Shown here: positions 21,493 through 58,982 of the stretch, piece after piece
Layout: the number at the start of each line of letters is the position of its first letter
How positions within the stretch are numbered: the first letter of the stretch is position 1
Source of the DNA: Maribacter spongiicola
GTDB taxonomy: Bacteria > Bacteroidota > Bacteroidia > Flavobacteriales > Flavobacteriaceae
Length of the DNA: 64,000 nucleotides
Reading direction: 5' to 3'
Assembly: GCF_004364165.1 (NCBI RefSeq)
Contig: NZ_SOAY01000010.1
Coordinates: 895,098 to 959,097, forward strand
The notes under the pieces: model-generated
Databases searched by the model: none
What the model was told of the DNA's origin: nothing
What the model saw: the letters and a program-made list of their open reading frames with translations, nothing else
Position numbers and translations under genes: made by a program

Positions 21493-21524
21493 AAAAAGCT
21501 TTGAGTGCAAACTCAAAGCTTTTT
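21493..21524. terminator. Bidirectional intrinsic terminator
   Basis: Perfect 14-bp stem (AAAAAGCTTTGAGT / ACTCAAAGCTTTTT) closed by a GCAA (GNRA) tetraloop, between the convergent thioredoxin-fold gene and the DUF2723 gene. Confidence 0.93.
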
Positions 21525-31946: not shown

Positions 31947-31977
31947 AAAAAAATCGACCTATTTGGTCGATTTTTTT
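31947..31977. terminator. Bidirectional terminator between infB and SPOR gene
   Basis: AAAAAAATCGACC / GGTCGATTTTTTT, perfect 13-bp stem, TATTT loop. The stop codon of the leftward SPOR gene lies in the loop, so its last codons are encoded by one arm. Confidence 0.93.
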
Positions 31978-45300: not shown

Positions 45301-47561
45301 TTTGCTATAGGTGCTGTCAATAAGTGGTCGGGTATACCGAAGCCATCGACTAGGCTATCTAAATGTGGTCTTAGTTCTGTGCATAGTCGCTCTACTCGTT
45401 GTCGTATCGCTTTTGACTTTGTTCCATTAATGTAGCCCTGCTCTAAATACCAGGAAGCATCTTTTCTTATTTCTTGAAGTGCATATAAAGTACCGAGTTT
45501 TTCAAATAATGCTTTATACCTGGGGTCTGTAATTGTGTTTGTATGGTCTATAAAAGACTTATAGGCTAACTCTGCGCTGTAAGACTTGCCAAGTGTCATT
45601 AAATGAGTCTGCACCTTTAAAAATGCTTGATAAGACGGAATTCCCTTTTTAATATACCCTCTAATTCGCATAGCGATGGTATAGGTAAGTCTTCTCGTTC
45701 TGTGCTCAAAAGCATGAACGTGAAACTTGGGGTTATATAAATGGTCTTTATCTGTTTTATTCGTGTATAATGGATTTATGGCAGAAAGCTTATCGCTTAA
45801 TTGAGAGCTTAACAGTTTTAGTACGGTGGAAAAGCCTGCACTATTGAATTCAGCTTTAAAATCTGACAGTACGCCTTTAGCGGCAAGTTGTAATAATACA
45901 TTGTTGTCACCTTCAAATGTGGTGAATATATCTACATCACCTTTTAGGTCTGCTATTCTGTTTTCTAACAGGTAACCTTTCCCACCACAGGCTTCACGGC
46001 ATTCTTGAATAGTATCGTTGGCATACCATGTAATAATAGATTTTAAACCGGCAACTTGTGTTTCTATCTGTCTTTTGTCTGGTTGAGATTCCTCGCAATA
46101 AAGCGCCATCATTTTATCTAATGTTACATGATAAACGTATGCACTTGCAACCAGCGGAGTTAAACGTAATTGATGTGACGGATAATCCATTAACAGGTCT
46201 TCCTGTATTTTAATACTATCATTGAATTGTCTTCTTTTTAAAGCATGTTTGATAGCTACTGCTAAGGCAAATTTCGCCCCGCCTAAACCTGCTCTCGCAA
46301 CACATATTCTACCACCTACTAGAGTACCCAGCATGGTAAAGAATCGTTTATTTGGATTTTTAATTTCTGAATAGTATTCTCCGTTACCTAAAATAGTACC
46401 ATATTTATTCAGTAAATTTTCTTTAGGCACCTCAACTTGATTAAACCATATCTTGCCATTATCAACTCCGTTCAGTCCGAGTTTATAACCGTTATCTTCA
46501 ACAGTTATACCCGGTAATAGTTCGTGTTGTTCATTTCTAAGTGGCACAAGAATTGCATGAACTCCTTCGTTTTTTCCATTAATAATAAGCTGTGCAAAAA
46601 CAGACGCCATTTTAGAATGTATAGCATTACCAATATATTCTTTATTGTCATTTTTTCCTGGGGTATGTATGACAATAGTTTCAGTTTGCTTGTTGTAGGT
46701 TGCTGTAGTTTTTATTCCGCGAACATTAGAACCATGTCCGGTTTCTGTCATGGCAAAGCATCCTAATAGTTCTGCTTTTCCTGTGGCGGATAAATAGTGG
46801 TCATGGTGTTTTTTTGTACCTAGTTTTTGAATACTTCCTCCGAACAACCCAAATTGCACACCAAATTTTATAGCTAAACTCCCGTCTGCCCACATCATAT
46901 TTTCGAAAATTGTTGCATAACCCTCCATGTCATTAGTACCGCCATAGTCGTTTGGGTAAGCCATTGCGCCGTAACCTTTATCCGCTAGATATTCTACTTG
47001 TTTTAAAACATGATTGCGAAATTCTTCTTTATTACGCCTAACTTCCCATGAAAAAATTGGGTCGTTTAAAACTGCCCTGAAAGAATCTATAACTTTAGCA
47101 TGTTCACCTTTTAAAATAGAGTCTATAGCTTGTGGCGAATATTGTGAAATTTTTTTTTCTAAATCGATATGAACCTCAAATAAATGATTGTAATGATTGG
47201 GTTGAATACCTAAGTTTATTTCAACCTTTTTAATTTGATCATTAAATAGGATATCATTGTGATAAAACGATGCTACTTTTTGACTGAATGCCGTAAGCGG
47301 ATATGTTTCATGCTCTACCAACTTTACATTGCTATTAATGATCAATTGTTTCCAAGACTTAAACAACTCGTTCTTTGGCGGATTTTTGACATTCATCCAC
47401 CCTTTAAGTTGTTTTTTATCATCATTCGATAAGGTGGTATCGTCAGAAACGGCATTCTCAACAACATTTATTTCTGATGCCGACAGTAGATCATCTGACC
47501 ATATAATATAAAAGACCGGAATATATTGTAGAACCTGTGCAGTGTAATTTTCTTTTGCCAT
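45297..47561 (-). CDS. Acyl-CoA oxidase / acyl-CoA dehydrogenase family protein
   Basis: 754 residues, the long form of the family related to peroxisomal acyl-CoA oxidases. FAD and substrate binding motifs CFAMTETGHGSNVRGIKTTATY and WFNQVEVPKENLLNKYG are present, and REACGGKGYLLENRIADLKGD near residue 520 is the C-terminal signature with the catalytic-Glu neighbourhood. It oxidises acyl-CoA to trans-2-enoyl-CoA; whether the electron acceptor is O2 (H2O2 product) or ETF cannot be settled by eye. No signal peptide, so cytosolic. Monocistronic and divergent from ruvB. Confidence 0.9.
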   Translation of the reverse strand: MAKENYTAQVLQYIPVFYIIWSDDLLSASEINVVENAVSDDTTLSNDDKKQLKGWMNVKNPPKNELFKSWKQLIINSNVKLVEHETYPLTAFSQKVASFYHNDILFNDQIKKVEINLGIQPNHYNHLFEVHIDLEKKISQYSPQAIDSILKGEHAKVIDSFRAVLNDPIFSWEVRRNKEEFRNHVLKQVEYLADKGYGAMAYPNDYGGTNDMEGYATIFENMMWADGSLAIKFGVQFGLFGGSIQKLGTKKHHDHYLSATGKAELLGCFAMTETGHGSNVRGIKTTATYNKQTETIVIHTPGKNDNKEYIGNAIHSKMASVFAQLIINGKNEGVHAILVPLRNEQHELLPGITVEDNGYKLGLNGVDNGKIWFNQVEVPKENLLNKYGTILGNGEYYSEIKNPNKRFFTMLGTLVGGRICVARAGLGGAKFALAVAIKHALKRRQFNDSIKIQEDLLMDYPSHQLRLTPLVASAYVYHVTLDKMMALYCEESQPDKRQIETQVAGLKSIITWYANDTIQECREACGGKGYLLENRIADLKGDVDIFTTFEGDNNVLLQLAAKGVLSDFKAEFNSAGFSTVLKLLSSQLSDKLSAINPLYTNKTDKDHLYNPKFHVHAFEHRTRRLTYTIAMRIRGYIKKGIPSYQAFLKVQTHLMTLGKSYSAELAYKSFIDHTNTITDPRYKALFEKLGTLYALQEIRKDASWYLEQGYINGTKSKAIRQRVERLCTELRPHLDSLVDGFGIPDHLLTAPIAN

Positions 47562-47676
47562 GCTATGAAATTACAAATTTTAGTTATAATACTCATGAGA
47601 TTTTAATGCTTCATTTTAGTAGGTAGATAAATTTAATTACCTAATATGTTAGCTGTCAAGTTATCTTGTGTTTGTC

Positions 47677-47684
47677 TATCTTTG
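47677..47684 (+). promoter_or_regulatory. -7 box of ruvB, very close to the start codon
   Basis: TATCTTTG ends 7 bp before the ATG at 47692. If used, transcription would start at or within a few bases of the ATG, giving a leaderless or nearly leaderless mRNA. No clear -33 TTG. Confidence 0.45.
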
Positions 47685-47691
47685 TTAGTGT

Positions 47692-48714
47692 ATGAACGAG
47701 TATTTAGACCCATCAGCTGATGGTTTCTCTAATGAGGAACTAGACATTGAAAGAGCATTAAGACCCATAAATTTTGACGATTTTACGGGTCAAGAACAGG
47801 TGCTTGAAAACCTTAAGGTTTTTGTAGAAGCTGCAAATAGAAGAGGCGAGGCATTGGATCATACATTGTTTCATGGCCCGCCAGGTTTGGGTAAGACCAC
47901 GTTGGCAAACATTCTTGCGAATGAGTTGGGTGTAGGGATTAAGATTACTTCTGGACCTGTTTTGGATAAACCTGGCGATTTAGCTGGGCTCTTAACCAAC
48001 TTAGACGAGCGTGATGTTTTGTTTATAGATGAAATTCACCGATTAAGCCCAATTGTAGAAGAATACTTGTATTCTGCGATGGAAGATTATAAGATTGATA
48101 TTATGATAGAATCTGGACCAAATGCCAGATCTGTGCAGATTAATTTGAATCCGTTTACTTTGATTGGTGCCACCACCCGTTCTGGATTATTGACTGCGCC
48201 TATGCGTGCTCGATTTGGTATTCAAAGTAGGTTGCAATATTATTCTACAGAATTACTTTCGACTATTGTTGAACGTAGTGCAGAAATTTTACGTGTACCT
48301 ATTTCTCAAGATGCAGCCATAGAAATTGCCGGTAGAAGTAGAGGTACACCTAGAATATGTAATGCGTTGTTGAGAAGAGTACGTGATTTCGCAGAAATAA
48401 AAGGCAATGGGTCAATTGATATGGAAATTTCAAAATTCAGCTTAAAGGCATTAAACGTAGATGCACATGGGCTAGATGAAATGGATAACAAAATTCTGAC
48501 TACTATAATCGATAAGTTTAAAGGCGGACCTGTGGGTATTACCACTTTGGCAACGGCTGTATCTGAAAGTGCAGAAACTATTGAAGAAGTGTATGAACCC
48601 TTTTTAATTCAGCAAGGGTTTATTATGAGAACTCCTCGTGGTCGTGAAGTAACCGAATTGGCGTATAAACACCTTGGCAGGATAAAAGGAGGAATTCAAC
48701 CTGGCTTATTTTGA
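47692..48714 (+). CDS. ruvB: Holliday junction branch migration ATPase RuvB
   Basis: 340 residues. An AAA+ motor that forms hexamers on both sides of the RuvA-bound junction. Motifs: [18 protein letters not shown] at the start, Walker [13 protein letters not shown] near residue 63, Walker B LFIDEIHR, sensor 1 [18 protein letters not shown], and the C-terminal winged helix with [20 protein letters not shown]. Complete. The stop TGA overlaps a TTG that once started queG (see the remnant). ruvA lies 13 kb downstream. Confidence 0.98.
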
Positions 48715-48840
48715 GTATTGATATAAAACATAATTGGACAAATAGTATTAAAACCGAAGCCAAACGCCTCGGTTTTTTATCATGTGGTATATCTAAAGCG
48801 GATATTTAAAGAGGTAAGAGCCTTGTATAGGAAAATGACT
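48711..48840 (+). pseudogene. queG: Decayed 5' fragment of queG behind ruvB
   Basis: From a TTG overlapping the ruvB stop, the frame reads [16 protein letters not shown] then [16 protein letters not shown] and hits TAA at 48807. The intact queG at 56567 starts, also from [19 protein letters not shown] followed by the same [15 protein letters not shown]. The two align with no gap from the start codon. Past the stop, weak DNA similarity (gaggtaagagcc versus gaggtagaagctcc) continues with small indels to about 48838, so this is a decaying gene remnant rather than chance. Confidence 0.88.
48750..48784 (+). repeat. 35-bp direct repeat, copy 1 (in queG remnant)
   Basis: Identical over 35 bp to 56606-56640 in the intact queG. 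Within it ACCGA pairs with TCGGT and GC with GC around a short loop, followed by a T-run, so it can also fold as a terminator-like hairpin behind ruvB. Confidence 0.9.
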
Positions 48841-49075
48841 TAATATGAATTTTTAATGTTAAATTGAGTACTTGAAACTATTAAATATTAATGGTTCTGC
48901 TTACAATTTATAAAAGAGTTTTCAAAGTTTGGGTTTCTATAAATACATTTTATAAAAATATCCTCCTAAATTGTTAATAGTTTAATTTTTATAATAAGTT
49001 TTCTTCGCTAGTTATCTTTTAGTAAATTGTTCTATGCATTTGCGAAGTTTATTGCGCATATTCTAGCAAACCCCG
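48841..49075. other. AT-rich spacer upstream of the HTCS gene
   Basis: No coding potential, tRNA or strong hairpin seen. It is very AT-rich and holds the left boundary of the proposed insertion plus, presumably, the HTCS promoter, which I could not place; TATGCATTTG near 49034 is two bases too long for the consensus -7 box. Confidence 0.5.
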
Positions 49076-52000
49076 ATGCTTTTTCTTCATTATTTTAAAG
49101 AAGCAATTATGGGTTGGAGTGTTGAATTTAAAATTCTCGATTTTTTCTTTTATCCATTATCGGTAAGGTGTATTTCTTTAATAAGTACGCTTTTATTTCA
49201 ACTTTCTTTTCTTTTTGGACAAGATGATGTACGTATAAAATATTATTCCTTAAAAGAAGGTATTTCACAAGTCACGATAAACGAATTGTTAAAAGATAGT
49301 TTGGGATTTGTATGGATTGGAACTCAAGATGGACTCAATAGATTTGATGGAAAGAAGTTTAAAACTTATAAATACGACGAATCTGACGATGCTTCCATTT
49401 CTGGAAATCATGTAACTAGTTTGCTGGACGATAAATCTGGTAATATTTGGGTGGGGACACTTGGTAATGGATTGAATCTTTATGACTATGAATTAGATGT
49501 TTTTCGTTCAATAGACTTAGAGAACCTTGTGCCTAACGAGACAATTCTGGATATGGTTGTAGACCATAAAAGTAATGTTTGGATAACTACTCGTAAATCA
49601 GGACTATATAAAATTACTTCTGATGGTGAGAATTTTATCCAAGAGAATTTTCTCAAGAATACATCTTTAAGTGGACTCTATTTCGATAACAGACATAATT
49701 TATGGGTGGGAGGGTATAATGGGACTGTTTATAAATTTGATTTAAACACCGGTGCTTCATCAGCTATTTCATCTGATATAAGTGTGGAAGGTGATGTACA
49801 AGCATTTTTTAGAAGTAACGAAAAATTATTTATTGGTACTGAAATCGGTATGTTCTTGTACGATACTAATTCAAAACAGCTCCAAAAGATCAATTTGAAT
49901 AAATATGGTGGAAGCCCTACTAGACATGTTGTAACTTTTTTGAAAGCTGACGATTCTACTGTTTGGGTTGGTACTGGGTCAGGTTTATTTTTGTTTGATG
50001 TATATGCACTTGAAGTAGTTCAAAACATTCAATATTCAGAAAATGAAACTGACGGATTAAGTAATAATACTGTTCAGTCATTGCTGAAAAATTCAGAAAA
50101 TCAAATACTAGTAGGTACAGCAAACAATTTGAATCTCCTAGATTTTAAAAGTCCTTATTTTAAAAACATTTCCAAAAATAAGAGGGGCTCACAAGTATTA
50201 AATGATAATGTGATATTTTCAATTTTAAAGGATGGAAAAGACCTGTGGGTTGGTACTTCTGATGGGGGATTGAACCTTATTCGGGAAGATAATGTATATT
50301 ATTTTCAAGAAAATCAAAACGACCCTTTCAGTATTTCGGGTAATGTAATTCGAGAAATTTGTAAGGATGAGGCGAATCAGCGAATCTGGATAGCCACAAC
50401 TCGAGGGCTTAGTATGATAGATTTAAAGACTTTTGACATTGAAAATCCTAAGTTTAAAATATTTAGACATGTAAAGAGAAACTCCAACACTATTAGTAAT
50501 GATTTTCTTAAAGGAATCGCACTCGATTCATCTGGTATAGTTTGGGGAGCTACATTTGGTCATGGAATTTTTAGTTTGAAGATGGATTCAAATGGAAATG
50601 AAAAGATTTATAGATACAAGAATGAGAAAGGTAATTCAAATTCTCTCATTAATGATTTTGCACAATGTATTACCATTGATAAAATAGGGAACATTTGGAT
50701 AGGTTCTCAGGGTGGTCTTACTAAATTGAGTTTAAAAAACTATTCTAACCCCGTTTTTACAAATTATGCACGAAATGATGATTTAGAGAATTCGTTATCC
50801 CATAATTCTGTTTACGATATTTTGGTAGATGACGAAGACAATAAATGGGTAGCAACACGTTATGGTTTAAATTTGTGGCAACAAGATGGTAAATTTAAAT
50901 CGTGGACAGAGCAAAATCAATTTACAAGTGCCATAATCTATGGAGTACAAGATGACCTTGATGGAAATCTTTGGCTGGGTACTACTGCTGGCATTGTTAA
51001 TTTTAACCCAAGAAGCAACCAGTTTAAACAATATGGGGTTCAAGACGGTATTCAGAGTAACGAGTTTGATATTCATGCTAGATTTAGGGATGATCAGGGA
51101 TTTATTTATTTGGGCGGTATTGATGGTCTCACCTATTTTCATCCTCGAGATTTAACCAGTATTGATGCACCACAACCACTTTATTTTTCTGAATTTCGGA
51201 TTAAGGATCAAGTAATAAAAGCAAACAGCTCACCGAATAGTGCCCTAAAGGAATCATTGTTAAAGACTAAAGAGTTAAAATTCAATAATAATCAATTCCC
51301 ATTTTATCTTCAGTTTTCTTCTGTTGATTTCCGTTTAAACAAACAGATTGAATATGGGTATAAGTTATTGCCCAATAATAAAGAATGGAATATGCTTAAA
51401 GATCCGGAGATTCAATTTTTGAATCTTCCATCGGGTAATCATACGTTGCTGGTAAATGGTTTTTCAAGGGGTGTAGAATGGGATCAAGAGCCTCTTAAAA
51501 TGAAGTTGCATGTAATTCCTCCATGGTGGTCAACCTGGTGGGCTTACATGCTATACGTCATTTTAGTGGTAGTATTAGCATATTTTTTCTATAAGTTTCA
51601 GGTTTCAAGAAAGTTGGCATTTGCTGAAAGTAACAGGCTTAAAGAAATAGACCAACTAAAGAATAGTCTTTATACGAATATAACGCATGAGTTTAGAACT
51701 CCTTTGACAGTAATATTGGGTATGGCCGAAACTATAAAGGAAAATCTTGGTGAAAAAGAATTTGTAAGGATAAATAAACCTCTTGAGATAATTGCGCGTA
51801 ATGGCAAAAGCCTATTGCATTTAGTTAATGAAATGCTAGAGCTTGCTAAGTTGGAAAGCGGAAATATAGAATTGCAACTCGTGAAAACCGATGTAATCTC
51901 ATTTATTAAATACATCTGTGAAAGTTTTCAATCGTATGCCTATGAAAAAAAAGTCAATTTAGTAGTATACTCAGAAGTAGACAGCTTAATAATGGATGTA

Positions 52001-53200
52001 GATGAAAACAAATTACAGACCATTATTTATAATCTGTTATCAAATGCAATCAAATTTTTAGGTGACGGGGATAAAATAATTGTACATCTTAACAGTACTG
52101 CGAAAAATGGCTCTAGTCAATTTCTGATAAAAGTTAAAGATAATGGTATGGGTATTTCAAAAGATGACCTACCTCATATTTTTAATAGATTTTATCAAGC
52201 AGATGCATCCATTATTAGGTCGAGTGAAGGCACTGGTATAGGGCTGTCGTTAACCAAAAATTTTATAGAGTTGATGGGTGGAAACATTACAGTGAAAAGT
52301 GAATTGGGTAAAGGAACGGAATTTACTGTTTATTTGCCCATATTCACCACAGCTAAAAGACAGGACTTAGCATTTAAAGATATTGAAATGCCGGTATTTG
52401 AAATCGATGGGTTAAAAGAAGATGCAAAGCCACAATATCTTAAAGAAAGTAATTTGCCAATTGCATTGATTATAGAAGATAATGTAGATGTAGTTTATTT
52501 TTTGAAGAATTCGCTTGAAACCAAATATCAAACAGTTTGTGCAGATAATGGTAAGATTGGTGTTGAGAAAGCTCTAAGTGAAATTCCAGACATAATAATT
52601 TGCGATGTCATGATGCCGGTAATGGATGGTTATGAAGTTTGTAAAACTTTAAAATCAGATAAGCGTACAGATCATATACCAATTATAATGTTAACGGCGA
52701 AGTCTACTCAAAAAGACCGTATTGTAGGTCTATCACATGGTGCTGATGCATATTTGGTAAAGCCTTTTGAAAAAGCTGAGTTGTTTATAAGGTTAGATCA
52801 ACTTATTGCACAACGTAAGAAAATGGTCAATAAGTTTGAAAGCGATGGTTTAGCTGTTTTTTTAAAAACTCAAACTAAGAACCCAAGAGTTCAATTCCTT
52901 CAAAAAGTTATTGAAATTATACAACAAGAGATGGCTAATTCTAACTTCGGTCCAAAACAATTGGCATTTAAATTGGAATTGAGCGAATCTCAAACGTATA
53001 GAAAACTAAAAACTATCACTGATAAATCTACTGCGGTCTTTATACGCTCGGTCCGTTTGAATAGAGCAAAGGAAATGCTTTACGATTCTGATATGACTGT
53101 TTCGGAAATTGCATATAGCGTAGGTTTCAATGATCCTTCTTGGTTTAGCCGCGCTTTTAAGAATGAATTTGGTTATGCACCAAGCGCAATTAATAAATAA
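49076..53200 (+). CDS. HTCS hybrid two-component sensor/regulator
   Basis: 1374 residues in one chain. Order: N-terminal signal/anchor (~25-50), two seven-bladed beta-propellers made of Reg_prop repeats (~55-690; blades like GFVWIGTQDGLNRFDG and GNIWVGTLGNGLNLYD), Y_Y_Y domain (~715-800), one TM helix (~822-842), HisKA with H871 in THEFRTPLTVILG, HATPase (DNGMGISKDD near 1021, GTGIGLSLTKNF), receiver with D1177 in ICDVMMPVMDGYEV, and an AraC-type HTH (~1275-1374; MTVSEIAYSVGFNDPSWFSRAF). All catalytic residues are present. HTCS proteins normally sense oligosaccharides and switch on glycan-use genes; here the next genes concern sulfur chemistry. ATG 49109 is an alternative start. Confidence 0.93.
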   Translation: MLFLHYFKEAIMGWSVEFKILDFFFYPLSVRCISLISTLLFQLSFLFGQDDVRIKYYSLKEGISQVTINELLKDSLGFVWIGTQDGLNRFDGKKFKTYKYDESDDASISGNHVTSLLDDKSGNIWVGTLGNGLNLYDYELDVFRSIDLENLVPNETILDMVVDHKSNVWITTRKSGLYKITSDGENFIQENFLKNTSLSGLYFDNRHNLWVGGYNGTVYKFDLNTGASSAISSDISVEGDVQAFFRSNEKLFIGTEIGMFLYDTNSKQLQKINLNKYGGSPTRHVVTFLKADDSTVWVGTGSGLFLFDVYALEVVQNIQYSENETDGLSNNTVQSLLKNSENQILVGTANNLNLLDFKSPYFKNISKNKRGSQVLNDNVIFSILKDGKDLWVGTSDGGLNLIREDNVYYFQENQNDPFSISGNVIREICKDEANQRIWIATTRGLSMIDLKTFDIENPKFKIFRHVKRNSNTISNDFLKGIALDSSGIVWGATFGHGIFSLKMDSNGNEKIYRYKNEKGNSNSLINDFAQCITIDKIGNIWIGSQGGLTKLSLKNYSNPVFTNYARNDDLENSLSHNSVYDILVDDEDNKWVATRYGLNLWQQDGKFKSWTEQNQFTSAIIYGVQDDLDGNLWLGTTAGIVNFNPRSNQFKQYGVQDGIQSNEFDIHARFRDDQGFIYLGGIDGLTYFHPRDLTSIDAPQPLYFSEFRIKDQVIKANSSPNSALKESLLKTKELKFNNNQFPFYLQFSSVDFRLNKQIEYGYKLLPNNKEWNMLKDPEIQFLNLPSGNHTLLVNGFSRGVEWDQEPLKMKLHVIPPWWSTWWAYMLYVILVVVLAYFFYKFQVSRKLAFAESNRLKEIDQLKNSLYTNITHEFRTPLTVILGMAETIKENLGEKEFVRINKPLEIIARNGKSLLHLVNEMLELAKLESGNIELQLVKTDVISFIKYICESFQSYAYEKKVNLVVYSEVDSLIMDVDENKLQTIIYNLLSNAIKFLGDGDKIIVHLNSTAKNGSSQFLIKVKDNGMGISKDDLPHIFNRFYQADASIIRSSEGTGIGLSLTKNFIELMGGNITVKSELGKGTEFTVYLPIFTTAKRQDLAFKDIEMPVFEIDGLKEDAKPQYLKESNLPIALIIEDNVDVVYFLKNSLETKYQTVCADNGKIGVEKALSEIPDIIICDVMMPVMDGYEVCKTLKSDKRTDHIPIIMLTAKSTQKDRIVGLSHGADAYLVKPFEKAELFIRLDQLIAQRKKMVNKFESDGLAVFLKTQTKNPRVQFLQKVIEIIQQEMANSNFGPKQLAFKLELSESQTYRKLKTITDKSTAVFIRSVRLNRAKEMLYDSDMTVSEIAYSVGFNDPSWFSRAFKNEFGYAPSAINK

Positions 53201-53281
53201 TTGATAATAAGTGCTTTACGTTTAGTTTAAACTTTTCTTATGCACAAATAGTGCTATACTAAATTCTCTTTTCATAAATAC

Positions 53282-53299
53282 TACCAGACTTTGCTGGTA
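53282..53299. promoter_or_regulatory. Inverted repeat upstream of the TsdA-like gene
   Basis: TACCAG-ACTTTG-CTGGTA, a perfect 6+6 dyad about 95 bp before the cytochrome start and 82 bp after the HTCS stop. No T-tract, so not a typical terminator; a possible operator for the neighbouring regulator. Confidence 0.4.
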
Positions 53300-53394
53300 T
53301 ACTGAAAGCCCTTCACTACTTCATGTTTTAAAATTGCATGTATCCAGAAGTAATTATTATCCCTTAGGGCAATATGGCAGTTAAATAAAACTAG

Positions 53395-54228
53395 ATGATA
53401 GATATTGTTAATTCTAAACTTAGCGGTTCGGCACAAGTACAGACTCCATTCTATTTGAAGCTTTTTTTCAGTCTGAGCTTCATTTCTATTTTTCTTCTCT
53501 GTAGTTGTTTAGATAAGCCAACAATTGAAAAAAGAGTTGAAAATTCATTGAGCAAAGATTACGATATGAGTTATGATATTTCTCAATTGGATGATTCAAA
53601 AGATAATGACTTGATACGATTTGGTTATGATTTTTTTCAAAACACATCCAAGTATATCGGAAATGGTAGCAAAGGTAAAGGCAGTGTGTATGCAGGAAAT
53701 AAATTGTCTTGTAATAATTGTCATCTCTGGTCGGGTACAAAATCATACGCCGCTCCACTAGTTGGAATAATAAATCGTTTTCCTCAATATAGGGGAAGGG
53801 AGAATAAAATAGGTACAATAGAAGAGCGTATAAATGGATGCATGGAGCGCAGTTTGAACGGAAAACCTATGCCTAAAGAAAGTAAAGAAATGAAGGGGTT
53901 ATTGGCTTATATGAGTTGGCTTAGCAGGTATGCCCCTGTAGATGGAAAAATTTCAGGACAAGGATTTGTGAAAATAGATATTCCCGACAGGGCGGTTGAT
54001 ATTAAACAAGGTAAAGCGGTTTTTAAGGTAAAATGTGTTTTATGTCATGCTGAAAATGGTCAAGGCTTAAAAGCGAAAGTTGGGTATGGATATCAATACC
54101 CACCGCTTTGGGGTAAGGATTCTTATAATAATGGAGCAGGTATGACCAGAGTAATTACGGCAGCAAGATTTATTAAAGCAAACATGCCATATGGCGCTAC
54201 CTACGAGAATCCAATTTTGACCGATTAA
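53395..54228 (+). CDS. TsdA-like diheme cytochrome c lipoprotein, prematurely stopped
   Basis: 277 residues to an in-frame TAA. A long N-terminus leads to a hydrophobic stretch ending FLLCSC, a lipobox-like site. Two class I heme sites: CNNCH at 106-110 and CVLCH at 214-218. The segments KSYAAPLVGIINRFPQYRG, RINGCMERSLNGKPMP (Cys149) and YPPLWGKDSYNNGAGM are characteristic of the thiosulfate dehydrogenase (TsdA) type; TsdA uses an unusual Cys axial heme ligand, for which Cys149 is the natural candidate. Likely oxidises thiosulfate to tetrathionate or a related reaction in the periplasm. The family's C-terminal ~70 residues follow in the same frame after the stop, so the gene is mutated, recoded, or misread here. 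Confidence 0.82.
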   Translation: MIDIVNSKLSGSAQVQTPFYLKLFFSLSFISIFLLCSCLDKPTIEKRVENSLSKDYDMSYDISQLDDSKDNDLIRFGYDFFQNTSKYIGNGSKGKGSVYAGNKLSCNNCHLWSGTKSYAAPLVGIINRFPQYRGRENKIGTIEERINGCMERSLNGKPMPKESKEMKGLLAYMSWLSRYAPVDGKISGQGFVKIDIPDRAVDIKQGKAVFKVKCVLCHAENGQGLKAKVGYGYQYPPLWGKDSYNNGAGMTRVITAARFIKANMPYGATYENPILTD

Positions 54229-54441
54229 GAGGCTTATGACGTTGCCGGATATATCAATGTGCAAGATAGACCATCCAAAAAAAATCGCGAAAGAGATTTT
54301 CCCGATCTCAAAAAAAAGCCGGTATCAACTCCATACCCCCCGTATGCCGATACATTTTCAATACGGCAGCATCAAATAGGACCTTTTTTACCGATAATGG
54401 AATATTACAAAAGTGAATACAATATAGTTAAATCTAAATAA
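54229..54441 (+). pseudogene. In-frame C-terminal tail of the TsdA-like gene, separated by TAA 54226-54228
   Basis: Directly after the stop the same frame continues EAYDVAGYINVQDRPSKKN, then DFPDLKKKPVSTPYPPYAD, SIRQHQIGPFLPI and ends at TAA 54439. This is the normal C-terminus of TsdA-type cytochromes, where LTDEEAYDVA is the usual join; one G-to-T change (GAA to TAA) explains the break. The tail shows no further frameshift or stop, so the damage is recent or not fatal. The next gene starts 6 bp later. Confidence 0.82.
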
Positions 54442-54447
54442 GTAAGT

Positions 54448-55128
54448 ATGAAAACACAAAACGAGAGTTCTAGAAGAAAGTTTATGGGTGCGGTGCTAAT
54501 GGGGACCACTGCAAGTACCTTGTCATTAATTACCGGACCAGTATATGCAGCAATGCCAAATTACGATGATAAAAAAATGGCGGAAGCGGATGATTGGTTC
54601 AATAAGATTAAGGGTACCCATCGCATTGTTTATGATGGGTCTACGCCTCATGACGGATTTCCAATTATTTGGAATTGGGCTTTTTATCTAAGTAATAATG
54701 AAACGGGATCAAAAGATGATGATATAACGGCCATGACAGTATTGCGCCATAATGCTATTCCTTTTGCATTGAAATCAGAAGTGTGGAAAAAATATAAGTT
54801 AGGTGAAGTATTCGGGGTAAATGATAATACTACCAATGCTGCTGCTTTGCGTAATCCTTATTATGAGCCTCAAAACGGTGATTTTCCAATGCCAGTAATT
54901 CAAGGTATTAAAGAAATGCAAGAGCGTGGTGCCATGTTCTGTGTCTGTAATTTGGCACTATCAGTTTACAGTGGTGCTGTCGCAGAAAAAATGGGTTTGG
55001 ATGCTAAGAAGGTATATCAAGAATGGGTAGATGCGGTTCACGCAGAAATACAGATTGTTCCATCTGGTGTCTGGGCTTTGGGTAGAGCGCAGCAGAACGG
55101 ATGTGGCTATATTTTTGCCGGAAATTAA
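54448..55128 (+). CDS. Tat-exported DsrE-like protein
   Basis: 226 residues. SSRRKFMGAVLMGTTASTLSLITG is a twin-arginine signal (shown here in part by SRRKFM at about 8-13), so a folded protein or cofactor is exported. The mature part ends in a DsrE-like fold: DDITAMTVLRHNAIPFAL, then GAMFCVCNLALSVYSGAV with two Cys in CVC, and VPSGVWALGRAQQNGCGYIF. Proteins of this kind are found beside TsdA-type cytochromes and sulfur genes. Sulfur-atom handling through the Cys residues is plausible but not shown. Same direction and tight spacing with its neighbours suggest one operon. Confidence 0.75.
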   Translation: MKTQNESSRRKFMGAVLMGTTASTLSLITGPVYAAMPNYDDKKMAEADDWFNKIKGTHRIVYDGSTPHDGFPIIWNWAFYLSNNETGSKDDDITAMTVLRHNAIPFALKSEVWKKYKLGEVFGVNDNTTNAAALRNPYYEPQNGDFPMPVIQGIKEMQERGAMFCVCNLALSVYSGAVAEKMGLDAKKVYQEWVDAVHAEIQIVPSGVWALGRAQQNGCGYIFAGN

Positions 55129-55150
55129 TTAATAAAAAAAATATAATAAC

Positions 55151-55564
55151 ATGAGAAATATAATAATAATTATAGCATTTTTTTTCCTGTCTTTAAGCTT
55201 ATTTTCCCAAAAGGAACCTATTAAAGCTGTGTTTGACCTTACTAGTGGAAGTCCCGATGTACAACGCTCTACAGCGCGGCATTTAAGATTGATGTCTGAA
55301 TCATATCCAACTTCAGAATTTGAGTTGGTTGTTTATAGTAGTGCTTATTCAATGGTGGATAAAAATTCGTCAGTTGCAGGTGAAACTCTTCGCGAAATCA
55401 TTAACAACGATAATGTGTCTATCGTGGTTTGTCAAAACACGATGAAGCGAAATAAAAAAACGGAGAAAGATTTAATACCGGGCGTAGGAACAGTTCCTGA
55501 TGGTATATATGAAATTATTTCTAAGCAAAAGCAAGGCTGGGGCTATATAAAAGAAGGTAAGTAA
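55151..55564 (+). CDS. Small exported DsrE-family protein
   Basis: 137 residues. MRNIIIIIAFFFLSLSLFSQ is a signal peptide. The rest fits a DsrE/DsrF-like alpha/beta fold: PIKAVFDLTSGSPDVQRSTARHL, FELVVYSSAYSMV, VSIVVCQNTMKRN with a single Cys in the usual fourth-strand position, and VPDGIYEIISKQKQGWGYIKEG. Likely a periplasmic sulfur-carrier-like protein. 22 bp after the Tat DsrE-like gene and 21 bp before the permease. Confidence 0.78.
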   Translation: MRNIIIIIAFFFLSLSLFSQKEPIKAVFDLTSGSPDVQRSTARHLRLMSESYPTSEFELVVYSSAYSMVDKNSSVAGETLREIINNDNVSIVVCQNTMKRNKKTEKDLIPGVGTVPDGIYEIISKQKQGWGYIKEGK

Positions 55565-55585
55565 AAAACAAAATCATTAACAGAA

Positions 55586-56404
55586 GTGGAAATTACCCAA
55601 ATATTAGGATATTTTGGTGCGTTGGCTATAGGGGTAGTTTTGGGACTGATTGGTAGTGGAGGTTCATTAATGGCAATTCCCATATTTACTTATTTTTTCC
55701 ACATTGGTCCGGTAACGACCACAGCTTACTCTTTGTTTGTTGTTGGCACTTCGGCTACAATAGGGGCTTTAGGTAATTTAAAGAAGAAACTTGTAAATTT
55801 TAGGATTGTTATATTTTTTGGTATTCCAACTTTTATTTCAGTGTTTCTGGTTCGTAAATTTCTCATTCCTATTATTCCAGAGGAACTATTTAGTCTTTTC
55901 GGTTATGTTGTAACACAACATTTTGCGATACTATTTTTACTGGCTATTTTGATGTTGGTATCTGGTTATTCTATGATACATAATAATAAGGTCTATCATA
56001 ACCCTTTTGATCAGTTGTATTATAACTATCCAATAATGATAATAGCAGGGGTGCTGATAGGTGTTTTAACAGGTGTTATCGGTATAGGTGGTGGTTTTCT
56101 TATAGTTCCATCACTTGTAATCTGTTTGCGACTACCAATGAAAAATGCAGTGGTCACTTCAATGTTCATTATAGCTTTAAAGTCCCTCATTGGTTTCTTG
56201 GGTGATATTCTCAATGTTGAAATTAACTGGTCTTTTCTATTTGGCTTTACGTTGGTTTCTGTTTTAGGTATTCTCTTAGGAAGCTATTTCTCAACATTTG
56301 TAAAGGGCGAAAAGTTGAAGAAATATTTTGGTTGGTTCTTAATATGTATTGTTTTATGTATAATGGTTAAAGAATTATTTTTTGGCGAAACAGAGTTTAT
56401 TTGA
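55586..56404 (+). CDS. TauE/SafE family permease
   Basis: 272 residues from GTG 55586, the only start that keeps the first helix. Eight or so TM helices in two related halves, each opening with a glycine-rich stretch: GVVLGLIGSGGSLMAIPIF and GVLTGVIGIGGGFLIVPSLV, the internal repeat of TauE/SafE. Members move sulfite, sulfoacetate, thiosulfate-type anions or similar across the inner membrane. With the TsdA-like cytochrome and two DsrE-like proteins upstream, a sulfur oxyanion is the likely substrate. Last gene of the cassette; about 160 bp of AT-rich spacer follow before queG. Confidence 0.88.
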   Translation: MEITQILGYFGALAIGVVLGLIGSGGSLMAIPIFTYFFHIGPVTTTAYSLFVVGTSATIGALGNLKKKLVNFRIVIFFGIPTFISVFLVRKFLIPIIPEELFSLFGYVVTQHFAILFLLAILMLVSGYSMIHNNKVYHNPFDQLYYNYPIMIIAGVLIGVLTGVIGIGGGFLIVPSLVICLRLPMKNAVVTSMFIIALKSLIGFLGDILNVEINWSFLFGFTLVSVLGILLGSYFSTFVKGEKLKKYFGWFLICIVLCIMVKELFFGETEFI

Positions 56405-56566
56405 AATCAATTATGATTTATTTAAGTTTGATGAAAGATGAAATAATTGTAAACTGTGTAAAAGGATGTTTTTCTCCGTATTTATGTAGGTATAGTGGGT
56501 TACTATAATTAATATAACAATGATAAATTGAATTAGAATGATAATCGTAATTTAGTTTTAAATTAT

Positions 56567-57493
56567 TTGACCCTGAACTTAAAACAAAAGAATAGCGACC
56601 TTATAAAAACCGAAGCCAAACGCCTCGGTTTTTTATCATGCGGTATATCCAAAGCAGATTTTTTAGAGGTAGAAGCTCCTCGTTTAGAAAAGTGGTTGAA
56701 TAATAATATGAATGGCGAAATGAGCTATATGGCGAATCATTTCGATAAAAGATTAGACCCGAGATTATTGGTCGAAGGTTCAAAATCGGTAATTTCTCTG
56801 CTATTAAATTATTATCCGGAGGAAACTCAAACAGATGATTCTTACAAGATTTCTAAATACGCCTACGGACAAGATTATCATCATATCATTAAAGCAAAAC
56901 TAAGACAGTTACAAGAATTTATTACCGAAGAAATTGGCGAAGTCGATGGTCGTGCTTTTGTAGATTCTGCCCCGGTTTTAGATAAGGCATGGGCTGCAAA
57001 AAGTGGCTTAGGATGGATTGGTAAAAACAGTAATCTACTGACACAACAAGTGGGCTCTTTTTACTTTATAGCTGAGTTAATAGTTGATTTAGAACTTGAA
57101 TATGACCATGCAGTAACTGATCATTGTGGTACTTGTACCGCTTGTATAGATGCCTGCCCAACTCAGGCAATTGTTGATCCGTACGTGGTTGATGGTAGTA
57201 AATGCATTTCTTATTTTACAATTGAGTTGAAAAATGAACTCCCCAATGAGTTGAAAGGTTCTTTTGATGATTGGATGTTCGGCTGTGATGTTTGCCAAGA
57301 TGTGTGCCCTTGGAATCGCTTTTCGAAACCTCATAATGAACCCTTGTTCAATCCAGACCCAGACTTGCTCAGCATGACCAAAAAAGACTGGGAAGAAATA
57401 ACGGTAGATGTCTTTCAAAAAGTGTTCAAGAAATCTGCTGTAAAGCGTACTAAGTTCGACGGACTAGTAAGAAATATTAAATTTCTGAAATAA
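56567..57493 (+). CDS. queG: Epoxyqueuosine reductase QueG
   Basis: 308 residues from TTG 56567; the start is supported by alignment with the TTG of the remnant behind ruvB. Last step of queuosine synthesis in tRNA: reduces epoxyqueuosine, using cobalamin and two [4Fe-4S] clusters. Motifs: [38 protein letters not shown] near residue 187 and [11 protein letters not shown] near 243. Complete, without the C-terminal HEAT repeats of longer homologues. It lies right after the sulfur cassette, about 7.8 kb from its broken copy. Confidence 0.96.
56606..56640 (+). repeat. 35-bp direct repeat, copy 2 (5' end of queG)
   Basis: Identical to 48750-48784. It encodes the [11 protein letters not shown] part of QueG and can fold as a hairpin with a T-run. 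Confidence 0.9.
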
Positions 57494-57662
57494 TTGAATC
57501 TTCTCAATCGTTTTCGTTTACTTTTTCTGAATGGTATTGTCTTAGAACAGCCTTAAATATATTATATTGGTAGTCGCTCAATATTATGTTTTTCGAAATA
57601 ATAACATGTGTTTTGTGAGAATGTATTAAAGTGTATCACCAATTAAATAACAGATCTCGTAC

Positions 57663-58982
57663 ATGAAGTTCAATAAACCTAATCTTAGTTTCTGGCAGAT
57701 ATTTAATATGAATGTTGGTTTTTTAGGAATCCAATATAGTTTTGGATTGCAGCAAACCGCTATTAACCCAATTTTTTTGTATCTAGGTGCACCTGAAGAT
57801 ATGCTTCCTATTTTAAATATCGCTGGGCCTATAACTGGGTTAATTGTTCAGCCAATAATTGGAGCTATTTCAGATAAAACATGGTCAGAACGTTGGGGTA
57901 GAAGAAAACCTTTTTTCTTAATTGGGGCGATTTTGGGCAGTTTATGTCTGTTCGCTTTCCCAACCAGTCCGTTTTTATGGTTTGCAGTTGGTTTACTTTG
58001 GATTCTTGATGTGGGTAATAACATGGCAATGGAGCCTTATAGGGCATTTGTTGGTGATAAGCTTCCAGAGAAACAATTGAGTTTAGGTTACCAAATGCAA
58101 AGCTTGTTCGTAGGTGCAGGTATACTTTTAGCGAATGGTTCAATAGTATTATTTCAATATTTATTTGGAGGAGAATCGGTAGAAGTTGCAGGTACTATAC
58201 CTACTTGGTTGTACTATTCATTTTATATTGGTGCAATTCTTTCGATAACTACCATCCTATGGTCTGTATTAAAAACACCAGAAATACCACCTAGTTCTCA
58301 AGAGCTTGTTGGTATTAATGCAGCTAAGGCCAAACCACTAGCAGAACGTATTGCTTTACCATTTAAAGAAATAGCAGAAGCGATAAGTAAAATGCCCAAA
58401 TTTTTATGGAAGCTGGGTGCGGTTTACTTGTTTCAATGGTATGCATTATTTATCTATTGGCAGTATACGACGCCTTTGTTTAAATTGACAATGGGTTATT
58501 CAACCGGCGAGGCAGCTTCACAATCTGCTCAAATGAGTTTGACCTATAATATTGTTACTATGGTGGTAGCTTTGGCATTGGTGCCACTATCACTAAAGTA
58601 TGGTGGTAAAAAAATATATGCGCTAAGTTTGCTGGGTACTGCAGTATCACTGTTTGTTATACCTTTTATTTCTGATCCTATAATGGTTTTAATACCTATG
58701 GTTCTCTTTGGTATTGGGTGGGCTGCAATGATGGGTATTCCATACACAATGGTGTCTAAAGTAGTGCCGCAAGATAGACGTGGTGTATATATGGGTATTT
58801 TGAATATGATGATTGTGATTCCAATGGGTATCGAAACACTAACATTTGGACCTATCTATAAATATCTGCTTGGCGGTAACGCCATTAATGCAATGTTATT
58901 TGCTGGTGCATTCTTTGCTATCGCCGCATTTTTTGCGATGCGCTTGAATGTTTCTAATAACGATGATGTAGCTGATTTATAA
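57663..58982 (+). CDS. MFS transporter, SLC45-like (sugar)
   Basis: 439 residues, 12 TM helices. The loop 2-3 motif is GAISDKTWSERWGRRKPFF, where RWGRRKPFF is typical of the SLC45/sucrose-maltose type of the major facilitator family, and GNNMAMEPYRAFVGD is also conserved there. Probably a proton-coupled disaccharide importer in the inner membrane. Stands alone between queG and maeB with no glycoside hydrolase next to it. Confidence 0.87.
   Translation: MKFNKPNLSFWQIFNMNVGFLGIQYSFGLQQTAINPIFLYLGAPEDMLPILNIAGPITGLIVQPIIGAISDKTWSERWGRRKPFFLIGAILGSLCLFAFPTSPFLWFAVGLLWILDVGNNMAMEPYRAFVGDKLPEKQLSLGYQMQSLFVGAGILLANGSIVLFQYLFGGESVEVAGTIPTWLYYSFYIGAILSITTILWSVLKTPEIPPSSQELVGINAAKAKPLAERIALPFKEIAEAISKMPKFLWKLGAVYLFQWYALFIYWQYTTPLFKLTMGYSTGEAASQSAQMSLTYNIVTMVVALALVPLSLKYGGKKIYALSLLGTAVSLFVIPFISDPIMVLIPMVLFGIGWAAMMGIPYTMVSKVVPQDRRGVYMGILNMMIVIPMGIETLTFGPIYKYLLGGNAINAMLFAGAFFAIAAFFAMRLNVSNNDDVADL

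Follow-up and report, generated by a model that had tools for sequence, protein, structure and literature searches.

Intrinsic (Rho-independent) terminators are recognised by an A-tract, a G-C-paired stem and a U-tract. All three are seen in a hairpin that begins 36 nt past the stop codon of ruvB in Maribacter spongiicola, within a stretch of 64,000 nucleotides (assembly GCF_004364165.1, contig NZ_SOAY01000010.1, positions 895,098 to 959,097 of the forward strand) that was analysed as a whole and is called the window here. The hairpin is further like ordinary terminators in that intergenic terminator-type hairpins of related genomes match a covariance model made from it. Unlike the usual intrinsic terminator, it is wholly contained in the conserved opening codons of queG, the gene that follows, its codon positions covary, and it is kept across much of the family Flavobacteriaceae. 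In E. coli, transcripts that end within coding sequence, some with intrinsic-terminator scores, are among the cases described in PMC7815308. The ends within open reading frames (ORFs) covered by that account are regulatory RNAs or processing products, whereas in queG the putative terminator of a neighbour is conserved in the start of the downstream gene (PMC7815308). Ribosome-mediated attenuators such as BmrC/BmrD of B. subtilis (PMC4191407) likewise have a terminator hairpin overlapping translated sequence. The queG hairpin differs from this leader, because it sits in a working enzyme gene, where translational control is only hypothetical. In BmrC/BmrD, it is reportedly a leader peptide that is translated. 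The hairpin and its conservation across the family had not been noticed in an earlier note on the same DNA (the original prediction). No report of a terminator inside queG was found in the open literature among the top results for the terms searched, and the main text of a transcriptome paper on F. psychrophilum (PMC9723704) mentions neither ruvB nor queG.

Judging from sequence comparison, codons 14-23 of queG in many Flavobacteriaceae probably double as an intrinsic terminator for the upstream gene, usually ruvB; in the window, a 5' remnant of queG would still serve ruvB in this way. The parts concerned are the following.

47692..48714, + strand: ruvB, Holliday junction helicase (Pfam RuvB_N, AAA_lid_4, RuvB_C), the proposed user of the terminator
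48711..48809, + strand: 5' remnant of queG
48750..48778, + strand: terminator-like stem-loop with six T, remnant copy
56567..57493, + strand: intact queG, epoxyqueuosine reductase (Pfam QueG_DUF1730, Fer4_16), with N-terminal codons linked to the block of genes described below and a native body
56606..56634, + strand: second stem-loop with a T run, coding, in codons 14-23 of intact queG

The core AAAACCGAAGCCAAACGCCTCGGTTTTTT, at 48750-48778 in the remnant and at 56606-56634 in intact queG, folds into an eight-pair outer stem and two inner pairs, followed by six T. Several intergenic hairpins of the window share its AAAA-stem-TTTT form. Conservation was examined in 36 Maribacter genomes including that of the window (G000). 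queG is present in 34 of these, and no match was obtained in G020 and G024, which are 68% and 64% complete. Together with G036, a genome of another genus, these queG genes have nearly fixed stem codons, some of them rare, despite the availability of synonyms (ACC in 31 of 31 Thr codons, GCC in 33/35, CGC in 33/35, and CTC in 32/35). Among 83 queG of other lineages, the stem sequence shifts yet often still pairs (ACC/GGT, GCC/GGC, TCC/GGA); the stem is missing in three queG of other families, where 2 to 5 of the 8 pairs form. Searching Rfam over 47400-58200 gave nothing on the hairpin at gathering score, with one sub-threshold match elsewhere. A promoter and terminator scan returned promoters at chance level and flagged only the remnant copy of the hairpin, on the minus strand.

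The hairpin is under selection within the coding sequence of queG. A discovery set of 118 genes was composed of 35 sequences (34 Maribacter and G036) and 83 others (80 named loci and three of other families). The second sample comprised 126 family loci (26 and 100 stretches), reduced to 120 after 6 identical to earlier ones were dropped; it was drawn from the better-matching part of 275 matching genomes, with the most distant members under-sampled. The pooled 238 queG are nearly all from Flavobacteriaceae. With G-U allowed, all eight pairs form in 72 genes of the discovery set, where synonymous shuffling of these peptides predicts 4.2, and strict Watson-Crick stems form in 49 (0.59 expected). 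The corresponding numbers in the second sample are 66 (3.6 expected) and 48 (0.42 expected). Over all 238 genes, 97 strict stems are seen against 0.99 expected and 0 at 140 other codon positions; with G-U allowed, the stem forms in 138/238 genes and in 0/238 when one arm is slid by 1 to 3 bases. The arms also change together. The first base of codon 15 and the third base of Gly-21 are Watson-Crick partners in 72/120 sequences against a permuted mean of 51.3, a value reached in 0 of 20,000 permutations, which ignore relatedness. Double-change cells numbered 12, against 3.2 in shuffled alignments, in a set of 41 sequences that is biased in that only those with seven or eight pairs were chosen; the covariation score of this set was reached by 0/500 shuffles. 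It can be seen that compensatory change is part of this selection. Constraint on protein and codons alone is hardly credible as the cause of the conserved core. The core peptide of 13 residues is indeed highly conserved, but such constraint does not produce the excess of stems over synonymous shuffles, nor the covariation between first-base and synonymous third-base positions, and it was rejected on these results.

The presence of the stem is linked to ruvB. Adjacency was defined as a ruvB match ending no more than 160 nt from codon 14, with the exclusion of 11 discovery genes that had no ruvB match in their stretch. The strict stem is found in 59/89 queG adjoining ruvB and in 33/138 others (p 2.5e-10), and the second sample alone gives 27/38 and 21/82 (p 3e-6). 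One contig-end stretch of that sample (L215) was counted as non-adjacent, and without it the numbers are 59/89 and 32/137. In path-disjoint pairs on a FastTree tree, made from part of one gene and used without branch support, the stem follows ruvB in 19 pairs against 2 (p 2e-4). The presence of any co-directional upstream gene within 130 nt was rejected as the determinant, for it fails to separate genes with the stem from those without, which the ruvB neighbour does. In the second sample, TT opens the codon of Leu-23, just outside the stem, in 63/66 genes that have the stem and in 39/54 that lack it (p 5e-4).

Ordinary terminators were also recovered with the covariance model of the queG hairpin (R1), which has a match at E 0.001 in 214/249 family genomes. 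Two matches occur in 23 genomes, the second ones being mostly weak; 8 of these extra matches were opened and 16 further weak ones were left out. Six of the 8 are intergenic terminator-type hairpins (L338, L340, L341, L342, L344, L345). Four of these 6 lie about 10-30 nt past the point where a mechanically called ORF on the same strand stops, and the one in L341 has nearly the queG stem. The opened matches were thus rejected as further queG remnants, with the exception of L339 (G186) and, by eye, L343 (G163), which look like queG pieces. Taken together, the adjacency to ruvB, the U-tract codon and the matching of intergenic terminators by R1 point to termination of ruvB transcription.

A different role has to be weighed against this, in which the hairpin acts in the RNA of queG, regulating or stabilising it (as an attenuator, a protein site or a block to RNase), and does not mark the end of the ruvB transcript. 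With G-U allowed, the stem is kept in 61/138 queG away from ruvB, and a second hairpin, CTTCGG/CCGAAG, at the queG start in G011, G004, G009, and G030 is suggestive of an attenuator. However, the strict stem is almost 3 times as frequent beside ruvB, the path-disjoint pairs agree with this, and the U-tract codon accompanies the stem in the second sample; moreover, the second hairpin was not seen in the window, and no systematic search for it was made elsewhere. A role confined to queG is therefore regarded as unlikely, while an attenuator of queG, alone or together with the terminator role for ruvB, is possible.

The remnant in the window shows the same element outside a working gene. A decayed queG 5' end directly behind ruvB had been claimed in the original prediction, and the sequence agrees: the TGA stop of ruvB ends at 48714, and the overlapping TTG at 48711 begins a frame of 32 codons that closes with the TAA at 48807-48809. 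A blastn search of the whole genome with a query of 171 nt matched only the remnant itself and queG (82% over 101 nt, E 2.8e-21), and tblastn with the queG protein matched the remnant at 61% over 33 amino acids (E 3.8e-6), a likeness beyond chance; the homology fades out by about 48870. The alignment to the intact start (TTG at 56567) was said to be gap-free, which is true at the protein level (66% over 32 amino acids), whereas the nucleotide alignment prefers two compensating gaps within the first 12 codons. The two N-termini were also said to differ at many codons; this applies to the first 12 codons but not to 48750-48784, which is identical in both copies. Between the remnants of G000 and G028, 0/22 stem and U positions have changed, compared to 21/155 elsewhere, at a borderline p of 0.051. 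In the Maribacter genome G008, the remnant is no longer directly behind ruvB and its hairpin has decayed. In G186, of another genus, a piece of the queG 5' end (L163, 11160-11232) lies downstream of a DsrE/TauE block; it has decayed but has a hairpin that pairs, and the queG of this genome is on a different contig. Though small in number, these patterns agree with a hairpin that outlives queG where it is useful. Additionally, a second queG-like 5' fragment including the hairpin region was noticed by eye in G163 (L343, about 1328-1386), the best match lying on another contig.

Several results weigh against a ruvB terminator in codons 14-23. At -10.1 kcal/mol, the queG stem is less stable than the strongest of the intergenic hairpins in the window (down to -18.0) and than three other folded ones (-14.1 to -19.3). 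The mean folding z at the codon-14 stretch is only -1.1 in the discovery set, although it is the lowest along the part scanned, and with G-U allowed 55 stems are found at codon 141 as well, where 36 are expected. In the 41-sequence set, the number of pairs with double changes is 2, which 146/500 shuffles reach. In the discovery set without Maribacter, the TT of Leu-23 goes with the stem in 28/38 genes against 24/45 (p 0.07), and on supported branches of the discovery tree only 6 pairs are available for the pair test. Apart from the 61 G-U-allowed stems away from ruvB, 18/89 genes beside ruvB lack one, and in two genomes of another family (L048/L050) ruvB adjoins queG with no stem. Intact queG of the window follows tauE and yet keeps its stem. 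The borderline conservation of the remnant and the hairpin loss in G008 belong to the same side.

The remnant and the intact gene are separated by a block of five genes. In 24/34 Maribacter with queG, as well as in G036, ruvB and queG are direct neighbours and the start of queG overlaps the end of ruvB. This is the common state, and therefore the block is an insertion in the ruvB-queG junction, as the original prediction had proposed; it is not the case that close relatives all have the block genes at this place. The genes of the block are listed here.

49076..53200, + strand: HTCS hybrid two-component regulator (Pfam Reg_prop, Y_Y_Y, HisKA, HATPase, response regulator, AraC-type HTH)
53395..54228, + strand: SoxA/TsdA-type c-type cytochrome (Pfam), with homology running on to about 54441
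54448..55128, + strand: DsrE-like protein 1, a label from the original prediction, without a Pfam match
55151..55564, + strand: DsrE-family protein 2 (Pfam DsrE)
55586..56404, + strand: TauE/SafE-family transporter (Pfam TauE)

Of the earlier labels, HTCS, TsdA-like, TauE and one of the two DsrE-like are upheld by Pfam. Base composition gives no strong sign of foreign origin (34.1% G+C in the block, 35.8% in the window, and 35.0 and 36.3% in neighbouring stretches).

Only G000, G028, and G008 have this block together with the remnant, and a genome-wide search for the remnant found the same three Maribacter. The order in G008 is ruvB, a P450-like gene, an opposite-strand gene pair, remnant, block and queG. 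Other genes lie between ruvB and queG in seven further Maribacter: a P450-like gene in G005, G032, G031, and G011, the last with a cytochrome c in addition, and a different HTCS-like regulator with a cytochrome c in G004, G030, and G009. The P450-like genes and these cytochromes c were identified from translations and not from database matches. In the ruvB tree, in which some branches are weak, G000 groups with G025, G016, G033, and G017, and G028 groups with G010; none of these relatives has the remnant or the block at this locus. The two copies of the queG start are similar and less than 8 kb apart, so that a local duplication of queG, with the block genes arriving later, might be considered. 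It is very improbable, however, in view of these nearest relatives, of the coincidence of remnant and block in the same three genomes, and of the N-terminus of intact queG, which is unlike the native type.

Compared in steps of 200 bases, G000 and G028 are 93-100% identical over 49000-56600 and 71-89% identical outside, apart from two gappy steps of 59% and 61%. Such a pattern is predicted by homologous recombination, the route originally put forward. On the right side, identity is 97% up to the hairpin in queG and drops to 86% some tens of bases past it, and the queG body groups with G025, G016, G033, and G017 in both trees (some of those branches are weak). Only the N-terminal codons thus came with the block; the idea that intact queG was brought in from a related strain fits those codons and not the native body. 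On the left side, high identity begins only at about 49000 and not at the core, and several events may therefore have been involved. On few sites, and thus only suggestively, the part of each remnant before the hairpin is like the native queG of its clade, whereas the part after it is common to G000 and G028.

When an element integrates at the start of a gene, it is flanked on both sides by direct repeats of that gene's 5' end, and the gene start is replaced. The block is like such elements in its repeats, for the queG core at 48750-48784 recurs from 56606, and in its replaced start; it differs in that no integrase was found in its five proteins. On this model the hairpin core would be an att-like recombination site of the block, the 5' end of queG having been replaced at entry. 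The end of high identity just beyond the right core, the change in the remnant from clade-native to common sequence at the core, and the queG fragment with hairpin near the block of G186 would fit. Even so, the model is improbable. The five proteins have no integrase, transposase or other recombinase domain by Pfam, in line with the original prediction (a recombinase may act from elsewhere), many genomes that have no block at this place conserve the hairpin, high identity on the left starts away from the core, and a recombination repeat needs no covarying arms.

The junction hosts the cytochrome c/DsrE module recurrently. A relative of DsrE-like protein 1 was found in 39/299 family genomes. 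For 16 of the 39, the surroundings of the block were opened and searched by tblastn. No queG turned up in any of these stretches and ruvB in only one (L164, G241), in which the block separates ruvB from a queG about 15 kb away. In Allomuricauda sediminis, [Muricauda] yonaguniensis, and [Muricauda] okinawensis (L101, L108, L137), the cytochrome c and both DsrE genes immediately precede queG, and ruvB lies some 2.4 kb upstream. These loci indicate that the ruvB-queG junction is a repeated home of the sulfur module.

The history favoured here is as follows. RNA polymerase leaving ruvB would meet the A-tract, eight-pair stem and U-tract of codons 14-23 about 35-65 nt past the stop where the genes overlap, and we infer that it would mostly halt there, with queG expressed by readthrough or from a promoter of its own. 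In this Maribacter lineage, the sulfur-related block (HTCS, cytochrome c, two DsrE-like proteins, TauE) would have entered the junction, the likeliest route being homologous recombination at or near the conserved 5' end of queG. The old 5' end would have stayed beside ruvB while the block supplied a new queG start. The remnant, no longer a gene, would have been kept with an intact hairpin because it still carries the putative terminator of ruvB. If this proposal is right, a dead gene fragment stays put because its RNA role outlives its coding role.

A bolder extension, doubtful though conceivable, is a switch gated by translation. A ribosome restarting at the overlapping TTG would cover the stem and admit polymerase to queG; with no restart, the transcript would end as a ruvB message. 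Under such a switch, the first codons of queG would set the share of ruvB and queG mRNA, and queuosine-dependent decoding might tune it. The duplicated core would further permit scar-free entry and exit of cassettes, because recombination between both cores would rebuild queG as well as the putative terminator.

Terminators are mostly sought between genes in operon prediction and annotation, whereas the queG element sits in the conserved start of an enzyme gene, where amino-acid choice and synonymous choice are coupled via base pairing. If the terminator proposal is true, selection on codons in such starts would be mistaken for constraint on the protein, and terminators may be concealed in other gene pairs likewise.

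Several smaller observations were made. The second hairpin, CTTCGG...CCGAAG, lies at about 9610-9660 of L035 and just upstream of queG in L039, L040, and L041; it has an arm that resembles the arm of the terminator-like hairpin, and it is a possible antiterminator. The ruvB match of G009 (L041, 1225-2247) is broken into four pieces that overlap or are shifted, as though the record carried a frameshift. The block HTCS has a counterpart of 96.7% amino-acid identity in G028, and the cytochrome c frame has an early TAA at 54226-54228, a point at which G028 and G008 read on. This early stop, like the shared arrangement in G028 and G008, was absent from the original prediction. Finally, the AAAA-stem-TTTT hairpins at 1839-1871, 21494-21523, and 31950-31974 of the window are terminator-like on both strands, the first two being intergenic and the third partly in a mechanically called ORF.

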